Source: Siphonodentalium dalli (taxonomy: Eukaryota; Mollusca; Scaphopoda; Gadilida; Siphonodentaliidae). From it: a stretch of DNA of 64,000 nucleotides. The notes under the pieces are model-generated. The model did not search any database and was not told where the DNA came from. It saw only the letters and a list, made by a program, of their open reading frames with translations. The stretch's first letter is position 1, and each line of letters starts with the position of its first letter. A program made the position numbers and the translations under genes. The stretch is from positions 199,540,052 to 199,604,051 of the forward strand of contig CP136067.1 of the NCBI GenBank assembly GCA_032622095.1, in the 5' to 3' direction. Shown here piece by piece: positions 31,301 through 61,924 of the stretch.

Positions 31301-34300
31301 AATGCAGAATCAAATTCTTTTACAGATAAAGACTAAAATCAAATGGAATTTATGAGATATCAGATAACTTGCACTCCAGCTTCTATCAAATAGATAAAAG
31401 CCATAGCAGAAACTATTTGAAATGTAAATGAATGTTGTGTTTTTAAAAATTATCCTCAATTCATGGCCACGACAAGCATCCTAATCAAAATAATAACAGA
31501 ATTTCTGACAATCAATGTTGTATTTGAAGAAAAACTCGTAATATCATACCCAAATTAAATCGATCAAACATTCATTGAATTGTGTTAGACAGTGTTAAGG
31601 AATCATATAAACTTCCAAATTGATTGTGGAGGACTCAAATGTATACTTTTATATCCTATTCAGCAATGAAAGGGTTTTCCACCAGCCAAATAAAAAATGA
31701 GGCCATCGGGGAAAATACAAACCATAAGAACAACAAAATACTTTAAATTCCATTACTAGTATATGCACGAATTAGCGATTATGGAGTTAGACATTTCTGA
31801 GGTTCCCACTTACACTCTAAACAAATCATGTTAGTTGGATGTTTAAGGGATAAGTTAGTCACATGCATCTATAAGTGTCCTATGCACCGTGTTGACCATG
31901 TTTTTTTATCTTTTTTCATTGGGCTCAGAACATGAACAACATAAACACATTAGTTCGCAGAAATAAAACATGACAATCGAGTTTTCTTTATGACAACTTG
32001 ATTTCCCATGAAGGTCTGAGGTTCTGACAGGCCAGTAGCCATTTTTTTTACTTGGTATGGGGAGGGAAGTCTTGTTTCGGGAGGGAAATGAGACTGTTTA
32101 CCAGCTGCCCTAGCCTGTCAGGGTTCATGCCATTGGTAGCAAAATTGGCCAATTGTCAAATTTTTTTGGGGAATGGCCTAAGAAACTTTCATTTGGCCAA
32201 ACCTTTCAAAAGTTTCAATCCTATAGTCAGCAATCATATATCAGAATATCACAAGATTTACCAAATCACTTATGTTTGTTAATAATAGCTAATGAGTAGC
32301 TGCTCACATGCGAAAGTGTTTGGATAACAATACACCACAAATAACAAATGCTTAACAAGCCTTGAAATAGTGTGTCTGTCATTTGAAGAATGAGGTCCCC
32401 AGAGGGTGAATTTAGTGATGCTACCCCACATAGCGGGCTAGCATCACCAAATTCACCCTCTGGGGACCTCATTCTGCTTTCAACTCAGCAGAATGAGGTA
32501 ACCAGAGGGTGAATTTGGTGATGCTAGCCCGCTATGCAGGGTAGCATCACTAAATTCACCCTCTGGGGACCTCATTCTGCAAATGACAGGCACACTATTT
32601 CAAGGCTTGATGCTTAATTATCAGAACAATGATGATTAGCAGCTATTACGGCATCCTTTCTTACTCAACAGACAATACTACAGTAATGCTCTAAGTAATC
32701 GACTCCTTAAACACAGCAGAATTATGGGTAACTTTTCAGGATTTAGTCGAAAATATGGCTTGTTGCCATTCATCGGAAAGCTCTCCCTGAGAGCTTTCCG
32801 ATGAATGGCAACAAGCCATATTTCTGACTAAATCCTGAAAAGTTACCCATAATTCTGCTGTGCTTAAGGAGTCGATTAATTAGAGCATTACCGTATACTG
32901 TGTTTTCAATATATAGAGGATCTCACACGAGTTTCTAGTTTATACGGAATTTATCAACTGAGTTCACTAAATTTGATTTGAGCCGAGGTTTACAAAAGCT
33001 CAAATAGAATTTAGTGGACGAGGTTGATAAATTACGTATAAAATAGAACGAGTTTGAGATATACCTTTTATCACATGATTAAATAAACGCGAAGCAACGC
33101 AAAGTATTCATCGAAAACAACAATCATAACCTTCAGCAATCGCATGTCATTTAAATAATGGCGTGACATCATTGCATGCTTTAATATTATATGTGTGTCT
33201 TACCAATAATTATGAAGCTGGTTTTGTGGGTTAATTATGTGATAAAATGCAATACCAAATGAAAGGCTAAATCGGTGCACATTTATGTTGGTATATCATT
33301 CCGCATAGATAGATATATGTTACAGTTTTTGATGATCTCATTGGTGTAGTGTCAATTTTCTAATTTCATAATTGATCAGCTAATTTGTAGTTGGCCATGT
33401 GATTTATTCTCTTGATAAACTTTCTGTTACATTTTATTTTAATATTCTTTTATTCTGTTTTTGTTACTTTCAGATTCAACAATGATCCTTAATTTAGTTA
33501 TTCTGAAAAGAAATGGCCAAAATAATTTTCTGGCCAGTGCGAACCCTGTATTCTCTGTAGCTGTTATATCATGCTTCTTTTCATGGAAAAGCTCATCATT
33601 TCATACCTGATTTGTCAAATCTCTTCATTTCTATCACTTCGTCATTCTCAAATTCAATTTTCTTTCCTCCGTAAGTTTGAGCTTTCTTTAAATCCTGTGG
33701 CATCAGCACTTCACCAGTGTCCTACAAAAGAAGAAAACAATCAACACATGGAAGCTAATTTTTAAATTTAGAATATTTGAATGGGTTAATTTCAAATCGA
33801 CATAAATTTTCAACACTTAAAGATACTCAATCCGGTTTGATGGACCTATATCATCAGGTCACAATAATAACGTTACTTCAAACTACGCTTCAGTTATCAG
33901 CATCGATTAATTACAACAAAATAAAATCCTAACCGCTGTCAAATATGGTATAAAATTTCCCAAAACGTGTTATTTATCAACATGTTGTCCAACGAAATAT
34001 TGCCGTGTCTATGGTATTACCACTTGAGTATCACAAAATTTGGCCGTATTACCACTTTATTTAGAGTTATCCATCTTCATCCGCAATTTTGTCAGAGACC
34101 GTCGGTTTGACGACTTTTATCTGGGCCACAAACAAGTACACATTTCGAGAAATAACAAATTAAAAATATTTATATCTGATCACTCTGAGCTTTGATGGGT
34201 GGGTTCCTCGACTCAAATAATATATATTTTACCCCCGAAGCTAAAGAAATAGTAATTTAGAAGCATCTAATCAGATTGAGTACCTATAAAAGCACTTTAG

Positions 34301-37300
34301 TTCCTTTCAACTATTTTTTACCCCCGTAGCGTTAACCGAAGCATTTGGGAGCGATAATTCAGATTATGTATCTTTAAGTGATTTGTGGTTTAACCCTTTG
34401 AGTGCCAGGTCCGATTTTTTTATCAACCCATATACCCTGTGCCAATGCATTCTCTTATATATGCGAGTCGACCATAGGTCGCCTCGCATATATAAGAGAA
34501 TGCATAGGCCTAACAATTTTTCATCATTTGTTATTTTTTTTTTTACAATTTTTTACAATTTTAATAAATTTTTTCTTATATTCTTTAACAGACTTATTTT
34601 GTAGGTTCAGTGCCAGAGAATCTTACGTTTTTCATGGGCATCAAAATTATTACTATGAATACTTGGTGATAGTTTTGAGTTATAACATGCCCCTAAGGTT
34701 TTATCCAGTTTGTTTTTAAATTCGCTATAATATGTTTAAGCATACCCAAACAAAATTCAACCAAAAAAAAAAAAAAAAAAAATCTACCGGTATAAAAAAA
34801 AACAATTGTTTTTTTAGTTTTTTTTTTAGGGCCGATTTTACAGACCGTAAACCCTGGCACTGAAAGGGTTAAAATAAGACAATATCGCCAAATAAGTGCT
34901 CATTTATGTTGATATAAATTTCCTATTTTAGTTTTTGCAGTTCCCATCCATGCACATTCCCATTGTCATTTTTGTCAATTGAAATTTATCAGTTATTATG
35001 TACATTGTTAGTTATCTTCGGCAACATCAGGGGTACATGGAGATTTAATACCTGGATGTCGATTTTGAACCACGAGACGGAGCCAAGGGGTTCAAAAATA
35101 GACATCCATGTATTATCCATGTACCCCACGATGTTGGCGGAGATAACGATTTTGGCCCCACAACAATAGCCATGGGGCCTCAATTTAAGTGTGCTTTTCA
35201 TAGGTTCTCAGATAAATTCACACCAATCAGCACCAATAAGAATAATTCAGTAGCTGACCTATATATGGATTCGGCATCAGGTGACGTCAAACTAGAGCAA
35301 CATCATGATTGGTGGAAACTGCCAGTTCAAGGGTCATTCATATACCCCCCGATGTTTCACGTGCCCATATTCCCCCCAAAAATGCCCCAAAAAATAAGCC
35401 AAAAGAATTTTCAGGACAGCGTGAATGAGCCCTGTTGATGTATCCATCAACAGCTTGTCAGATGAAGATTCTCACTTACTCAGATAAGATCAACAAATTT
35501 CACAGTAGTGATATACAAGCCTTGAAATAGGGTGTCTGTCATTTGCAGAATGAGGTCCCCAGAGGATGAATTTAGTGATGCTACCCCCGCATAGTGGGCT
35601 AGCATCACCAAATTCACCCTCTGGGAACCTCATTCTGCTGAGGTGTAAGCAGAATGAGGTCCCCCAGAGGGTGAATTTGGTGATGCTAGCCCGCTATGCG
35701 GGGTAGCATCACTAAATTCACACTCTGGGGACCTCATTCTGCAAATGACAGACAAACTATTTCAGAGTAGTGATATATTAATCACATAATTAGCCCCTAA
35801 AACCGGCCTCATCTTTTTTAGTAAGACACACATGTATTATCAGCATGCGCAGTGCCGTGAGAGCTTAGCGCAATCATATTGATGTCAATGCTGGAACTTT
35901 TTCAGAACTGTTAATTTGAATATAATTATGATATTCAATTTGAGTTGGGTTATTTAGTGTAAACTGTAAGATAAGGGTGGTTGAGATACACATGGGTGAT
36001 AAGGGTGGCTGAACAAATTTGTCAACATGAAAAGACACATTTAAAATTGAACTATATTTTTTCTTGAAGGTGTCTTTACTTACTCTTTGTTGTGATAAGG
36101 AAATCAATATTAATTCTTTTTAGCTCCAGCCATTTCAAGATCGTTTTTACTTGCTGAAATGTGATTATGTGATAAAATGGATCTCAAATTCGTCGCAATT
36201 CTATACAAAATTTATACTAAACCTCGATTCGAATCAAATTTAGTGCACTCGGTTAATAAATATCGTATAGAATTGTGACTCATTAGCGATCCTCTATGTA
36301 TGAAACACGTCGTTGTTTACTTGTCACTATTGACTCACTTTTAGGTATGTCTTTGTATGTGTCTTCAGTTCTTCATTAGTTTTCTTGTATAGCTTCACAC
36401 CATATGGCTTGGGACAGGTTCGTACTAGGTTATAACTGAAACATAGAAATTTGTTTATCAACGAAACTGCATTCATAAATTTCAACAAATGTTATGACTA
36501 TAGAATTAGAAATGTGATTTGTAGTCTAACAAAGAAAATGTTGAAAAAGGTAGCAGCATCCAGTGGATGCTAAACCTGAGTCAATAAGTGGTGTGGAACA
36601 ATCCACTGGGGTCCAGCCTCAATTTAGTGTGTCTGACATTTGCCGAATTAGGTCCTCAGAGGGTGAATTAAGTGATGTGACAGAAGGTCTACTTCTTCAC
36701 GCATGTGCAGAGCGATATTTTAAGAAAAAAGTTTGCTTTTTATCGTTGCCCTAAGATTCCACTCCATTCCTCCAATATAAAATATATCAAATAACTTACA
36801 CTCCAATTCCAAACTCCATTCCTCCAATATCAAATATATCAAACCATAACTCACACTCCAATTCCAAACTCCATTCCTTCAATATCAAATATATCAAACC
36901 ATAACTCACACTCCAATCCCAAACTCCATTCCTCCAATGCCGAACGTACATCGCCGCAGTGCCCTCTTCTTATGGTCCTTTGTCCTCATTCTGTAATCAG
37001 AGATTAACCCTTTCTATACTAAATGGATTCTCCATTCAGTTATAAATGTATTCATTTGAATAGTCCATTATTTATTTGGAGGGATGTTCAGGTAAAACGA
37101 GCAGACGAGCAGACGACAGTATAACAAAACGATAATACAAGTGCAGAAGGATTCATATTCTTTGAAGGAACTGTTCCGATAACAAGTTTCAACTTATTGT
37201 ACTTATTATCTGAACATTTCCTATGGTCGTTTGTTGAACTTATTATCTGAACATTTCCTAAGGGAATTGCTCGTTTCATATCTCGTGCCAGGTTGTGACC

Positions 37301-40300
37301 CTTGGGCAGGGTCACTTGTACTGTGCTCGCTTCGTCGTACCTAGACGAGAAAAAGATACCTGGTTGTTGGGTATCTGTAAGCCGCTCTAGTGAAACGCCT
37401 GTAAAATGGCAGCAGGCACAAGACTCGGCATTACTCATAAAAAACAGCTGGGGTAATAATATAAGCGCTTAGAGCTACACCAGGGATTAAGCGCTATATA
37501 AATAATATACATTTATTATTATTATTATTTTCAAATTATGGCAGTATTTTTATAGCACAATACAACCAGCCAGCACTAAACTCTAGTGTAAGACAGGGAG
37601 GTTTTGAGCATGGAATTTCAAATTTTGCATACAGTACTGCCCTAAGTAATCGACTCCTTAACCACAGCAGAATTATAGGTAACTTTTCAGGATTTAGTCA
37701 GAAATATGGCTTGTTGCCATTCATCGGAAAGCTCTCTCCGACTAAATCCTGAAAAGTTACCCATACTTATGCTGTGGTTAAGGAGTCGATTACTTAGTGC
37801 TTTACTGTACGACAGGCCAAACCATGGTTCTATCTTAGGTTCTATGGACCCTACATTTTATCCCCAGTTGAAACCCTGGTCACAAGTGTTGTGTTCTGCG
37901 CCAATGGCTGTTAATGAGAGGAATAAGAATGTTAAGAATGTTAAAACAAGAATTTAGTCATATCCAAAATGGCCATTGGCAGTCATGTTTAGTAAGGAAA
38001 TTTGGAAATTTGATGGCTCCTGTAAAGAGTGAAATCTAATATGGCCATGTTTTTCATTTAAAAAAAAGTCAATTGCTCCCATCTACAGGTGATACTAAAC
38101 AGGCGTGTAAATTTAAAAAACAATTCTCCAATAAATGTAGGCTGCAGGGTGTGCCAATGAATTCAAATGTGAAACCCAAGATGGCTGCTGGTGGCCACGT
38201 TTTTAATGTTGTAATGAATTTTGGAAAAAATTGATGGCTCCCATCAAGAGGTCATCCTGAAGATGTATATGAATTTTGGTGACGATCTGATGAAGGATGT
38301 TGACTGTAGGGTAGGCTATAGGAAATTGTTGAAGGAGTGCACACAAGGATGGATGTCAAACCATGACAATAGCTTAAACTTGACGTTGTCAAGTTGAGCT
38401 AAAAATAATTGTTATTCCCATGAAAAAAGATGGTGGTCTCTACAAGTCTTTTATGTTGATGATATTGAAGAGTAAAGGCATAAAGTTGGCATCTTATATA
38501 CAGGCCAATCTGACCTTGTAAGGAGTCAATCTGACCTTGTAAGGAGTTCCTCTAATCGTTCAGAAGCATCAGGCAACTCCGTCAATTCATCGTCGGCAGT
38601 AAATATCAGATCCTGCAAAAAAAAAAGACAGACTGACTTATTAGTATTTTTAACCCTTAGCATGAAGCGCATGTATTCAACAAATCTCACAACTGCCAAA
38701 TACCTATTACATTTTCTCACATGTTGAATCTAAGCCGGATCTAATTTGTGTTGACAATGTCGCGAGAGTGATGAAATAAATTACGTCAACTATTTGATTG
38801 CATTGATGCCCAAATAATTGACAATTGTCTTACAAGACTTGAGTCAAAATTATGGCAACAATTATATCACTACTGAATGAAAGTCTAGGATATGGCTTAA
38901 AGATACAGACAGAATATATTATACTACAGCAGGGTTTCCGCGAGGGGAAAATTAATGAGTCTGTATTGTGAAAACACATAACGCGACGGGACGACAATGG
39001 TTCGTCCTGTCGGGCGAAAATTTTGTTATTTGACACTGAAAAGTAACAATTTCCTTGCACCTAAGAGTCTCACAAAGCAACCAAAGCTATACGTATATAT
39101 TACGCAAATCAATCATTTCCGTGGGTGCATTAATTAATTCTGTTGATGGTATCCAGAGAATCAATCAATTAATTACGCACATAAGACTGCCGTCTGATTG
39201 AAGATTATATATAAATGAACAAGCTACGAGTTAGTGTTTACAAATTTATACAATAAGATTCCGACAGGTATAATGAATCTAAACACTACAAAGCATCTAT
39301 GCATTGACCAATAATAGACAGCAAGGAGAATTGAATAAACTATTTCCTAGAATTTCAAGCAGCTTCTGTGAAAATGAAACTGACATGATATAGGCTGTCA
39401 ATCGTAAAACTATTTGTGCGCTGTGACGTCATACTGCAGGGTTTGTCTGCAGGAGATATTTATAACGGCAAAATACGAATGGTAGCGACACAGGTATTTG
39501 GCGAAAAAAAAAATTAATAAAAAGAGATTTTTATTAAATAAAAAAAAAAAATTGTGCCTAATACCTGTGGGTAGCGACATCTTTCACTCGGAACGCGTAG
39601 CTTGTTCACTAGTCTCTATTAGTCCATAAACTGACGACCGCAATTGCTTATTATGCGCAGTCAACAAAATCCCAAAGTGATTTGTTTCACAATAATACTG
39701 AACCTGTCCCGAAATCAGTCTTTATAGTGGGAATTCATAGTGACAAGTTAACAACACCATTCATTTGAACCATATTACATACATGGGGGATAAAGACAAA
39801 CACATACCCACTCCCCAATATGGAGATAAAGTCAAAGGACGGTAAATAATAGTTGCGTTGTCCCCAAGCACAATCAACGACGCACGTGTTCACATTTCCC
39901 GCCAAAATTATATTTTATAACACATTGGCTAAAACTCTGTTCTATACCTCATGGTCATGGACTCTGCAGAGGGACCCATTTATTATGTACCGTACGATAG
40001 CACGGGATCTCGGAGAGGAGTAGTTTCATCCATGAAAATCCCGTGCATAAAAATGTCCCGACTAAGAAATTCGGCGTTCGGTGCTCTTTGATCAAATTAT
40101 GTAATCGTAGGATATCACGGGATTTTCGAGCATGAGTAGTTTCATCCCGTACACAAAAATATGCGTACTCAGCAGACTCCGGCATTCTTTGTTTTTACCG
40201 CGACATGCATTACGCTGTATCTAACGTCGCTATTTGACCCGCTTTTTCACCAGTATTCTGTTTAACCCACCGAACTCCCGTTGTAACCTGATTTGTTTAA

Positions 40301-59559: not shown

Positions 59560-59692
59560 TCTTACAACAGGTCTATATTTCAGAAAATTCAGAAAACGGG
59601 AAAGGGAATACCGAGAGAATACCTGTAGGTCCGAATCCGATTTCCGCGATTGAAGTGCGAACACCGATCGATGTTCGCTCACACATTCGAAA
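59560..59692 (+). promoter_or_regulatory. Probable UMPS 5' UTR and promoter region
   Basis: Sequence just before the UMPS ATG is less AT-rich than its surroundings and has several CpGs (ccgatcgatgttcgctcac). No TATA box was recognised. The transcription start cannot be placed. Confidence 0.35.
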
Positions 59693-59851
59693 ATGGCGGC
59701 CCCCATGAACACGAGTTCTGCTACTGAAAACATAATTCTTCGCCTTTTCGATATACAGGCTGTTAAATTTGGAGAATTTAAATTAAAAAGTGGAATAATA
59801 TCTCCTGTTTATTTTGATTTGAGGGTTGTCATTTCTTATCCTGGTTTGATG
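59693..59851 (+). CDS. UMPS: UMPS first coding exon (OPRT domain start)
   Basis: UMPS is the bifunctional cytosolic enzyme (orotate phosphoribosyltransferase plus OMP decarboxylase) for the last two steps of UMP synthesis. ATG at 59693 opens 53 codons: [20 protein letters not shown], then [20 protein letters not shown] and [13 protein letters not shown], followed by donor gtaaga. Human UMPS has [20 protein letters not shown] then PIYIDLRGIVSRP at the same place. Only the N-terminus of OPRT is present; the PRPP-binding loop and the decarboxylase domain must lie right of the window, since no further UMPS exon could be recognised up to 64000. Divergent from XRCC6. Confidence 0.93.
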
Positions 59852-60369
59852 GTAAGATTACACGTCCAAATACATTTTATTTTGTTAATAACACGAAAAT
59901 AGGAGATGTGAAAGAAACAGATCCTGTTTAAAAAAAAATCGACCAATGTCATTTGAACACTGTAGTAATAATTCATTTTGTTTTAGTAAGTGTAGGAATC
60001 GGTTCGACAAAATCATGGATAGTTTGTTCAAACGACTGTGATATCATCGCAAATGATAAAAACAATCGACATTTATCAATCAATCGTCTGTTGTTCGTAA
60101 GCCATGGTTAACCACGTGATTGACTACCCCACGATCTTTCCATCCACGATTTTTAGGTATACACAAGTGGAAGTAACCAAGGTACGCCTTGACTAACTAC
60201 TGGTTACTAGTGCTGAATTGGACATTGTCACATGATTTTGTGCAAAAAAGACACCCTGCATCTCCTCAATGTGCAAAAAGATACCCAGTATCTCCCAAAT
60301 GTGCAAAAAGACACACATGATCTCAAAGTCGATTCAAGGATACAGAACCATGATGCAAGTTAAAGTCAA

Positions 60370-61655
60370 AGCGAACAAAATTTATTGTTGTTGTTGTTGG
60401 CATCATAATCATCTGTAGCTGGTTAATGTCACTGGTGCATTAACTGCTGGTGCTGTATTCACTAGGTGCTATACTCTGTATGTGTGACGTCTTCTATCTG
60501 GTAAGGGAGAGTTATATACATATATAAAATCATTGTTTAGACACTGATGCCTGAAGATCTGACAAAGTTGTGAACAAGTTTATGTCGAAGAAGTTCTGTA
60601 TCTGCTGACAGCTAGTGTCCTTCGCATTGCCCGAGGAGAAGTTTTATTGTTTTGCCGCTGTCATTTATAGAATCCTGGAGTTGCGGACTTTCGGTGAGAT
60701 CAGAAAACAGTATGTCCCTGTACCCTTGGTTTAAGCTGCAGTTGAGAATGTAGTGTAGTATAGTTCCTTGTTCACCACAAGAGCATTTCGGTGTGGCTAC
60801 AAGATTCATTTTGAACATATGCTCATTTAGGAGAGTGTGACCTAACTTGAGTCGGTTAACTTTCACCTCCGTGGCTCTGTCAGAGAATGAGAATTTGGTA
60901 GGCTTCATACCAGTTATTGGAAACAATTCTTGAGTGTGCTGTGAAGTTTTACAAAGGTCCCACGAGGTTTGCCACTTACATTTAACAGAGTCCTTTATTG
61001 CATTTTTATGTTCTTTGAAAGAGTTCAGATTAGAGTGATCTGTGAAAGAAGCTTGCGGGACAGTAGAAGCTGCTTCTTTTGCTGCAATGTCTGCCAAATC
61101 ATTACCCGTAATGTTAGTATGACCTCTCATCCATTTCAGAATAACCCTGGATCCCGTTTCATTAAAAATATCATTTATTAGAGAGTTACATGCACGAGTG
61201 TGATCTATGTGACCTTTATAATAGTCTCGATTGTATATTGTCTGTAACGCACTTTTTGAGTCACTGATAACAATGGTTGCTACAGATAGCTTTTTTGTTT
61301 TGACAAACGATTTGGCATATATTAGACCCAGTCTTAGTCCATAAAGTTCAGCATTGAGACTGTCATCAGAAGATTGAACAGGTTCACTTATGATAACCGG
61401 ATCGCTGAGTAGGCCACTAGTGTATATAACGGCAGCAGAACCACTGTGTCCATTATTTAGCACTGATCCGTCCGTAAAAATAATCAGGTCTTTTCCACCT
61501 GTGCTCTGTAGGAATTTACAGTTATCATTACTTTCGATGTCTAGAGATGCTGCTTGAGATGTATTACTAGAGTTTGGTACAGTTTCAGGAGTTTTATAAT
61601 ATTCAAATTCAGTTGAAATTCCACTCTGATCTAAAAAAAAACAAATACATATAAT
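60370..61655 (-). mobile_element. Non-LTR retrotransposon 3' part, with RNase H
   Basis: A 5'-truncated LINE: RNase H region (60612-61634), then a 3' UTR ending in tgccaacaacaacaacaata near 60380. The 5' break is next to a tta/ataat repeat at about 61652-61665. RNase H next to the C-terminus of ORF2 is found in the I superfamily and some relatives; reverse transcriptase is not present here. Confidence 0.8.
60612..61634 (-). CDS. RNase H domain of a LINE ORF2 (5'-truncated)
   Basis: An open frame of about 340 codons ending at 60612. It shows the four acidic residues of an RNase HI fold: Asp in IIFTDGSVLNN (codon at 61472-61470), Glu in SLNAELYGLRLG, Asp in ATIVISDSKSAL, and Asp in HTNITGNDLADIAAKEA. 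A C-terminal Cys/His cluster follows (PKCSCGEQGTILHYILNC). RNase H would remove RNA from the RNA-DNA hybrid during target-primed reverse transcription. The start is not a true start: the frame runs in from the truncated 5' side, and the first catalytic Asp lies upstream of any good Met. The frame itself has no stop, so the copy is fairly young. It is a mobile-element fragment, not a host gene. Confidence 0.85.
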   Translation of the reverse strand, partial: LDQSGISTEFEYYKTPETVPNSSNTSQAASLDIESNDNCKFLQSTGGKDLIIFTDGSVLNNGHSGSAAVIYTSGLLSDPVIISEPVQSSDDSLNAELYGLRLGLIYAKSFVKTKKLSVATIVISDSKSALQTIYNRDYYKGHIDHTRACNSLINDIFNETGSRVILKWMRGHTNITGNDLADIAAKEAASTVPQASFTDHSNLNSFKEHKNAIKDSVKCKWQTSWDLCKTSQHTQELFPITGMKPTKFSFSDRATEVKVNRLKLGHTLLNEHMFKMNLVATPKCSCGEQGTILHYILNCSLNQGYRDILFSDLTESPQLQDSINDSGKTIKLLLGQCEGH

Positions 61656-61924
61656 AATAATAATAATTAGCAGACGACTAATCTAAAATCATGTTTTTTA
61701 ATGAGATATCGATATGCTGGGTGACTTTTGATCTGGAGATCCTGGGTGTCTTTTTGCACGTTTCAGATATGCATAATCCTAGGTGTCTTTTTGCACGATA
61801 CCATGCGACGATCAATTCAAATTCAGCATTGCTAGTACTACCCATGGTGGAAAACTTTCCACTTACGATCGAATCATTGTCGTCTGAATGTTCACCTAAA
61901 CAGAGATTTAGAATTTGTCCTCGT

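Follow-up and report, generated by a model that had tools for sequence, protein, structure and literature searches.

The locus analysed here raises the question of which of three tandem copies of a splice donor a gene uses, and with what consequence for its product. In the window, by which we mean the whole 64-kb stretch of DNA under analysis, we found on the minus strand a gene whose exon translations, once joined, aligned with human Ku70 chains at E 1.6e-85, and in this translation both the Ku (beta-barrel) and the Ku_C (C-terminal arm) Pfam domains scored above cut-off; judged by its predicted protein, the gene carrying the array is Ku70 (XRCC6). The homology-based model has approximately 18 coding exons, running from roughly 52.7 to 19.2 kb, with small exons possibly missed and any 5' non-coding exon lying outside it. 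The original prediction had numbered the exon that ends in the array as exon 10; by homology it is about the ninth of the 18 coding exons, so that the number 10 was not borne out, yet would be possible given small or 5' exons. When a 220-residue part of Ku70 was searched against the whole genome (2.23 Gb in nine contigs of 190-301 Mb), six matches were obtained, all within this gene, which places Ku70 at one genomic position; none of the six was an intronless copy, which would have documented the real junction. Two other open frames were noted in the window, a long one on the minus strand (60615-61682) that encodes an RNase H domain (Pfam PF00075, E 3.2e-12) and may belong to a retroelement, and one on the plus strand (59654-59899) that resembles a first exon of UMP synthase, a tentative name, as a Pfam search of this short piece gave no match.

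Coding exon 9 (36910..36990, minus strand, 81 nt), whose acceptor and donor were fixed by frame and homology, ends GGA GT/GTGAGT (the slash marking the exon end) within the first unit of a 55-bp tandem array of 3.3 copies (36761..36938, minus strand; TRF, 93% matches, score 307). The 55-bp repeat at this exon is beyond chance. Both the unit listing and self-comparison showed that unit 1 straddles the boundary, taking in the final 29 nt of exon 9 and the opening 26 nt of intron 9, and self-comparison at period 55 showed the repeat running from -29 to +63 relative to the exon 9 donor. The span originally given, 36761-36990, is too long for the array, as the repeat ends at 36938 and positions 36939-36990 are the remaining exon. 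The array sequence has a single genomic location, which rules out a dispersed element and identifies the array as local. Tandem arrays are frequent in the window (30 TRF rows, some overlapping). Separately, two similar tandem pairs of 103-104 bp with palindromic-looking units were detected by TRF at 32387-32580 and 35545-35742, and a fragment like these units, perhaps a small mobile element, occurs in Ku70 intron 9 near 36680 and also beside the sampled exon L042.

Three donors lie in the array on the minus strand, D1 (GTGAGT, 36904..36909), D2 (GTGAGT, 36849..36854) and D3 (GTAAGT, 36794..36799), and their starts at 36909, 36854 and 36799 follow one another at exact 55-bp steps, in agreement with the original prediction that a minisatellite has triplicated a Ku70 donor. 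The next coding exon (36339..36435, minus strand) has its acceptor TTTCAG just upstream, outside the array. Joined to this exon, D1 gives the in-frame FGIGV/YNLV, which aligns with SVGIYNLV of Ku70 and is collinear with the human Ku70 segment LKLNKDIVISVGIYNLVQ; D1 was the sole donor to keep the frame. The truncation foreseen earlier for the downstream donors was also recovered, since either D2 or D3 joined to the next exon reads GTG TGA, an immediate stop. The last residue of their product would align with position 273 of the human chain, which we take to be near the start of the Ku core. Nonsense-mediated decay depends on where a stop lies relative to a downstream junction. Here the stop would precede the next junction by 51 or 106 nt, and eight further introns follow in the exon model, so that decay of D2 or D3 mRNA would be expected. 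Use of D1 is, on the predicted reading frame, required for the Ku70 protein.

In the reading that we favour, with a probability of about 0.8, the exon 9 array is a boundary-spanning minisatellite of the mirage type, in which D1 is mainly used and D2 and D3 are decoys spliced out with the intron. Mirages are minisatellite-like tandem duplications of exon-intron boundaries reported from the Adh3 and globin genes of amphioxus (PMC3087553), and the corresponding arrangement was found at Ku70 exon 9, where the unit spans the exon-intron boundary, the authentic boundary is intact and the copies are intronic (between 36909 and 36761). A local tandem duplication, through slippage or unequal exchange, would have copied these 29 exonic and 26 intronic nucleotides as one block. 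As the copies would lie downstream of the authentic donor, the exon would remain whole and the copies would become intron, making such duplications tolerable at donors. D1 would then predominate and the decoys would be used little, with any leak to D2 or D3 yielding truncated, decay-prone mRNA.

The preceding coding exon (38536..38612, minus strand, 77 nt) has an array of its own, which is absent from the original prediction: TRF and self-comparison identified a 21-bp duplication in two copies, 100% identical, across its donor (38506..38547, minus strand). The duplicated segment comprises 12 nt of exon and 9 nt of intron and places donors at 38535 and 38514 (minus strand), each scoring 7.63 bits with a donor matrix from the same genome. 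Use of the second (38514) would stop translation at once after LLTRSD. Arrays were thus present at 2 of the 17 Ku70 exon ends examined and at 0 of 17 exon starts, the donors of some exons, such as 1 and 3, being uncertain.

We compared the donors by scores in bits from a matrix built on this genome, with percentiles taken among sampled donors. The expectation of near-identical donors in exon 9 held, as their predicted strengths were similar (5.56 bits for D1, 5.56 for D2 and 6.18 for D3). D1 stood at the 18th percentile, and D3 was slightly stronger. Predicted U1 pairing energies were equal for D1 and D3 (-7.0 and -6.9), and predicted accessibility showed no consistent difference among the Ku70 donors that would point to RNA structure hiding D2 or D3. 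As neither prediction separates the donors consistently, a preference for D1 would have to rest on position and not on strength. The slight advantage of D3 and the weakness of D1 count against the decoy reading, as does a further consideration: a published study reports a preference of SRSF1 for the intron-proximal donor (PMC5585400), which in the Ku70 array would be the wrong one and speaks against an automatic first-donor rule.

The weakness of D1 would also suit a different explanation, in which clustered downstream U1 sites strengthen D1 and the array is kept by selection. Consistent with such helper sites, donor nonamers differed among copies less than the remaining unit positions (6/234 vs 89/1835), although the difference fell short of significance (P 0.07; 0.19 when each array contributes a single alignment). 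Arrays were also found at strong donors, such as that of L095 at the 98th percentile, and donors are not enriched in arrays over intron sequence, as described below; we consider selection for helper sites improbable. L033 was excluded from the comparisons of donor strength and donor copies because its donor was uncertain. Across the arrays examined, 23 of 25 downstream donor copies retained GT and the donor nonamers were identical across all compared copies in 8 of 13 arrays, while the second donor of L164 differs from the first at +6. There was thus no significant sign that downstream donors are either purged or specially kept. Such retention suits rare or harmless use of the decoys; young arrays would look alike, and the retention may reflect the youth of the arrays, a further point against the decoy reading.

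We then surveyed exons of other gene families in the same genome, set 1 comprising 80 kinesin and 40 chaperonin exons and set 2 comprising 40 SNF2 and 20 myosin exons, drawn from 123, 53, 73 and 85 rows respectively. We chose to leave out likely recent paralogues, some rows with multiple stops, many weaker rows and two chaperonin frames that were long and uninterrupted; match ends served as a proxy for exon ends, which suits SNF2 least, and arrays were detected at periods of 12-150 and a score of at least 20. Among the myosin matches, many near-identical muscle-myosin exons are clustered on contig C4 at about 274.2-275.5 Mb, which hints that myosin heavy chain genes have recently expanded in tandem. 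Arrays spanned 13/120 of the 3' match ends in set 1 and 1/60 of those in set 2 (the sets differing at P 0.04; kinesin 9/80, chaperonin 4/40, SNF2 0/40, myosin 1/20), 5/120 and 2/60 of the 5' match ends, and 1/120 and 1/60 of the mid-exon positions. Since the excess in set 1 was absent from set 2, the genome-wide rate is uncertain.

For background, arrays spanned 4.1% of 1500 random positions of the window at a score of at least 13 and 3.1% at a score of at least 20, and 3.3% of 2000 positions drawn from eight 10-kb pieces. Within the introns of set 2, at a depth of 160 nt, they spanned 11 of 120 positions, with 1/60 donors and 2/60 acceptors spanned over the same narrower stretch. Donors did not differ from nearby intron (14/180 vs 11/120, P 0.68), were richer than mid-exon positions (14/180 vs 2/180, P 0.003) and did not differ significantly from acceptors (14/180 vs 7/180, P 0.18). 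Array coverage came to 8.3% right at the 3' boundary, stayed at 5.6-7.8% through the following 140 nt of intron and had dropped to 1.8% at exon position -120; at the acceptor-side boundary it was 3.9%. The first 120 exons hinted at a hot spot at donors, which was lost both in the next 60 and against the intron control. Donors of set 2 fell below nearby intron (1/60 vs 11/120, P 0.06), a shortfall that would fit some cost of donor duplications and counts against the decoy reading. As a coding control, and not as a donor sample, we used 14 uninterrupted AMP-binding frames (14 matches, some of them close paralogues), in which arrays covered 38 of 24,357 coding nt vs 2157 of 33,192 flanking nt; arrays are nearly absent from coding interiors.

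Donors were placed with the matrix in 147 of the 180 exons, the 33 without a confident donor near the match end being dropped, and a downstream copy was counted when its GT was intact and it included 6 nt or more of exon. By this definition 11 of 147 donors (7.5%, CI 3.8-13%) in four families other than Ku70 had a downstream tandem copy. These lie in kinesin, chaperonin and myosin genes (L030, L033, L049, L051, L057, L065, L072, L077, L095, L105 and L164), with periods of 30-88 bp. Three arrays of set 1 fell outside the count, L098, whose nearest downstream copy has lost its GT, and L061 and L110, which have no clean donor copy. On the acceptor side, the SNF2-type exons L143/L144 showed a 127-bp array containing an acceptor and exon start, and a 39-bp pair in which the upstream copy no longer has its AG. 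Genome-wide, AGGTAAGT occurred in pairs 16-46 nt apart 2856 times per 55,976 single sites (5.1%) vs 3078 per 130,622 (2.4%) for the reversed word; as the places listed are largely a few long satellites, we give this excess little weight, though its direction was expected. One long satellite array, at C1:140561-147083 on the minus strand, has AGGTAAGT every 73 bp and is rich in perfect donor motifs.

A boundary-spanning array is probably not special to Ku70, as it recurs in the sampled genes. At the 7.5% rate the chance of two or more arrays among 17 donors is 0.37, which makes Ku70 ordinary in its array content. The same structure in other genes, at an intron-like rate, is what ungoverned local duplication would leave. 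That only D1 restores Ku70, and that the preceding exon and these 11 other donors share the structure, argues for the decoy reading.

The survey also bears on whether the assembly is at fault and the true genome has a single unit. Tandem arrays are common sites of misassembly, one haplotype is represented and the 21-bp pair is perfectly identical, all of which would suit an artefact. However, substitutions and a small indel distinguish the units of the exon 9 array from one another, and several other genes carry similar arrays that vary in period and divergence, so that we regard an artefact as very improbable indeed, the least probable of the explanations weighed.

It had further been proposed that competition among the donors renders part of the Ku70 mRNA unproductive, with array length tuning the level of Ku70. 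The likeness of the donor copies in strength and context would favour such a switch, as would the immediate stops beyond the first donor in both Ku70 arrays and the length instability reported for mirages in amphioxus (PMC3087553). On the other hand, unrelated kinesin, chaperonin and myosin genes share the structure at the background rate of introns, two arrays in one gene are expected often enough by chance, and the closest published case, in amphioxus, was spliced regularly by RT-PCR in the same report, with splicing undisturbed by the unstable mirages. Tuning of Ku70 output by array length is therefore unsupported, and we hold a regulatory switch to be unlikely, marginally more so than selection for helper sites, and return to decoys spliced out with the intron as the preferred reading.

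Arrays of this kind are already known, and what is new is the presence of two in Ku70 and their frequency in this genome. Amphioxus mirages and the Ku70 array are alike in having an intact exon, intronic copies with splice signals and units of tens of bp, and mirages, like the arrays here, affect several genes of one genome; they differ in that length variation and splicing were reported for amphioxus, whereas the host here probably lies outside the cephalochordates and the array is known from the sequence of one assembly. One muscle myosin exon of this genome scored best against a PDB entry from squid (3i5f), followed by scallop and tarantula, with vertebrate myosin-7 behind them; as far as a single exon and the few animals in the PDB can show, this suggests a spiralian and not amphioxus. 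A molluscan haemocyanin domain gave no match, a result that does not demonstrate its absence. In human IFI6 (6-16) a minisatellite likewise supplies repeated donors at an exon end, and its downstream units are reported to be used, giving three mRNA species (PMC4526556, citing Turri 1995), in contrast to the downstream Ku70 donors, both of which are predicted to give immediate stops. Internal tandem repeats at exon-intron boundaries have also been described in human genes within segmental duplications (PMC2812944), a similar minisatellite expansion at such a boundary; as reported, that case concerns recently duplicated primate paralogues and novel introns with transcript support, whereas Ku70 is old and single-copy, and its intron seems to have stayed in position. 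Intron gain by tandem duplication (PMC4974935) shares with Ku70 a duplication that crosses an exon-intron boundary and copies splice signals, but there a new intron arises, whereas the Ku70 acceptor at 36436 is separated from the end of the array by 325 nt. With the acceptor so placed, there is no sign that intron 9 arose from the array, and intron 9 does not have both splice sites derived from a duplicated segment. A literature search, mostly without subscription papers, found no genome-wide count of boundary-spanning arrays and none in Ku70.

The Ku70 case alone would be a modest curiosity, and the frequency of arrays in the genome is the interesting part. Beyond Ku70, we suggest tentatively, at a little under even odds, that boundary-spanning minisatellites are a genome-wide habit outside the cephalochordates, affecting approximately one donor in thirteen, and that the first of the near-identical donors is picked by its position and not by its strength. 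If this is true, the genome would be a natural large-scale test of choice among competing 5' splice sites. Competing donors usually differ in strength and context, and the near-identical copies found here could expose a positional rule over many genes. The arrays would further illustrate how duplications across a boundary turn into harmless intron instead of shifting the frame, and provide raw material for new introns.
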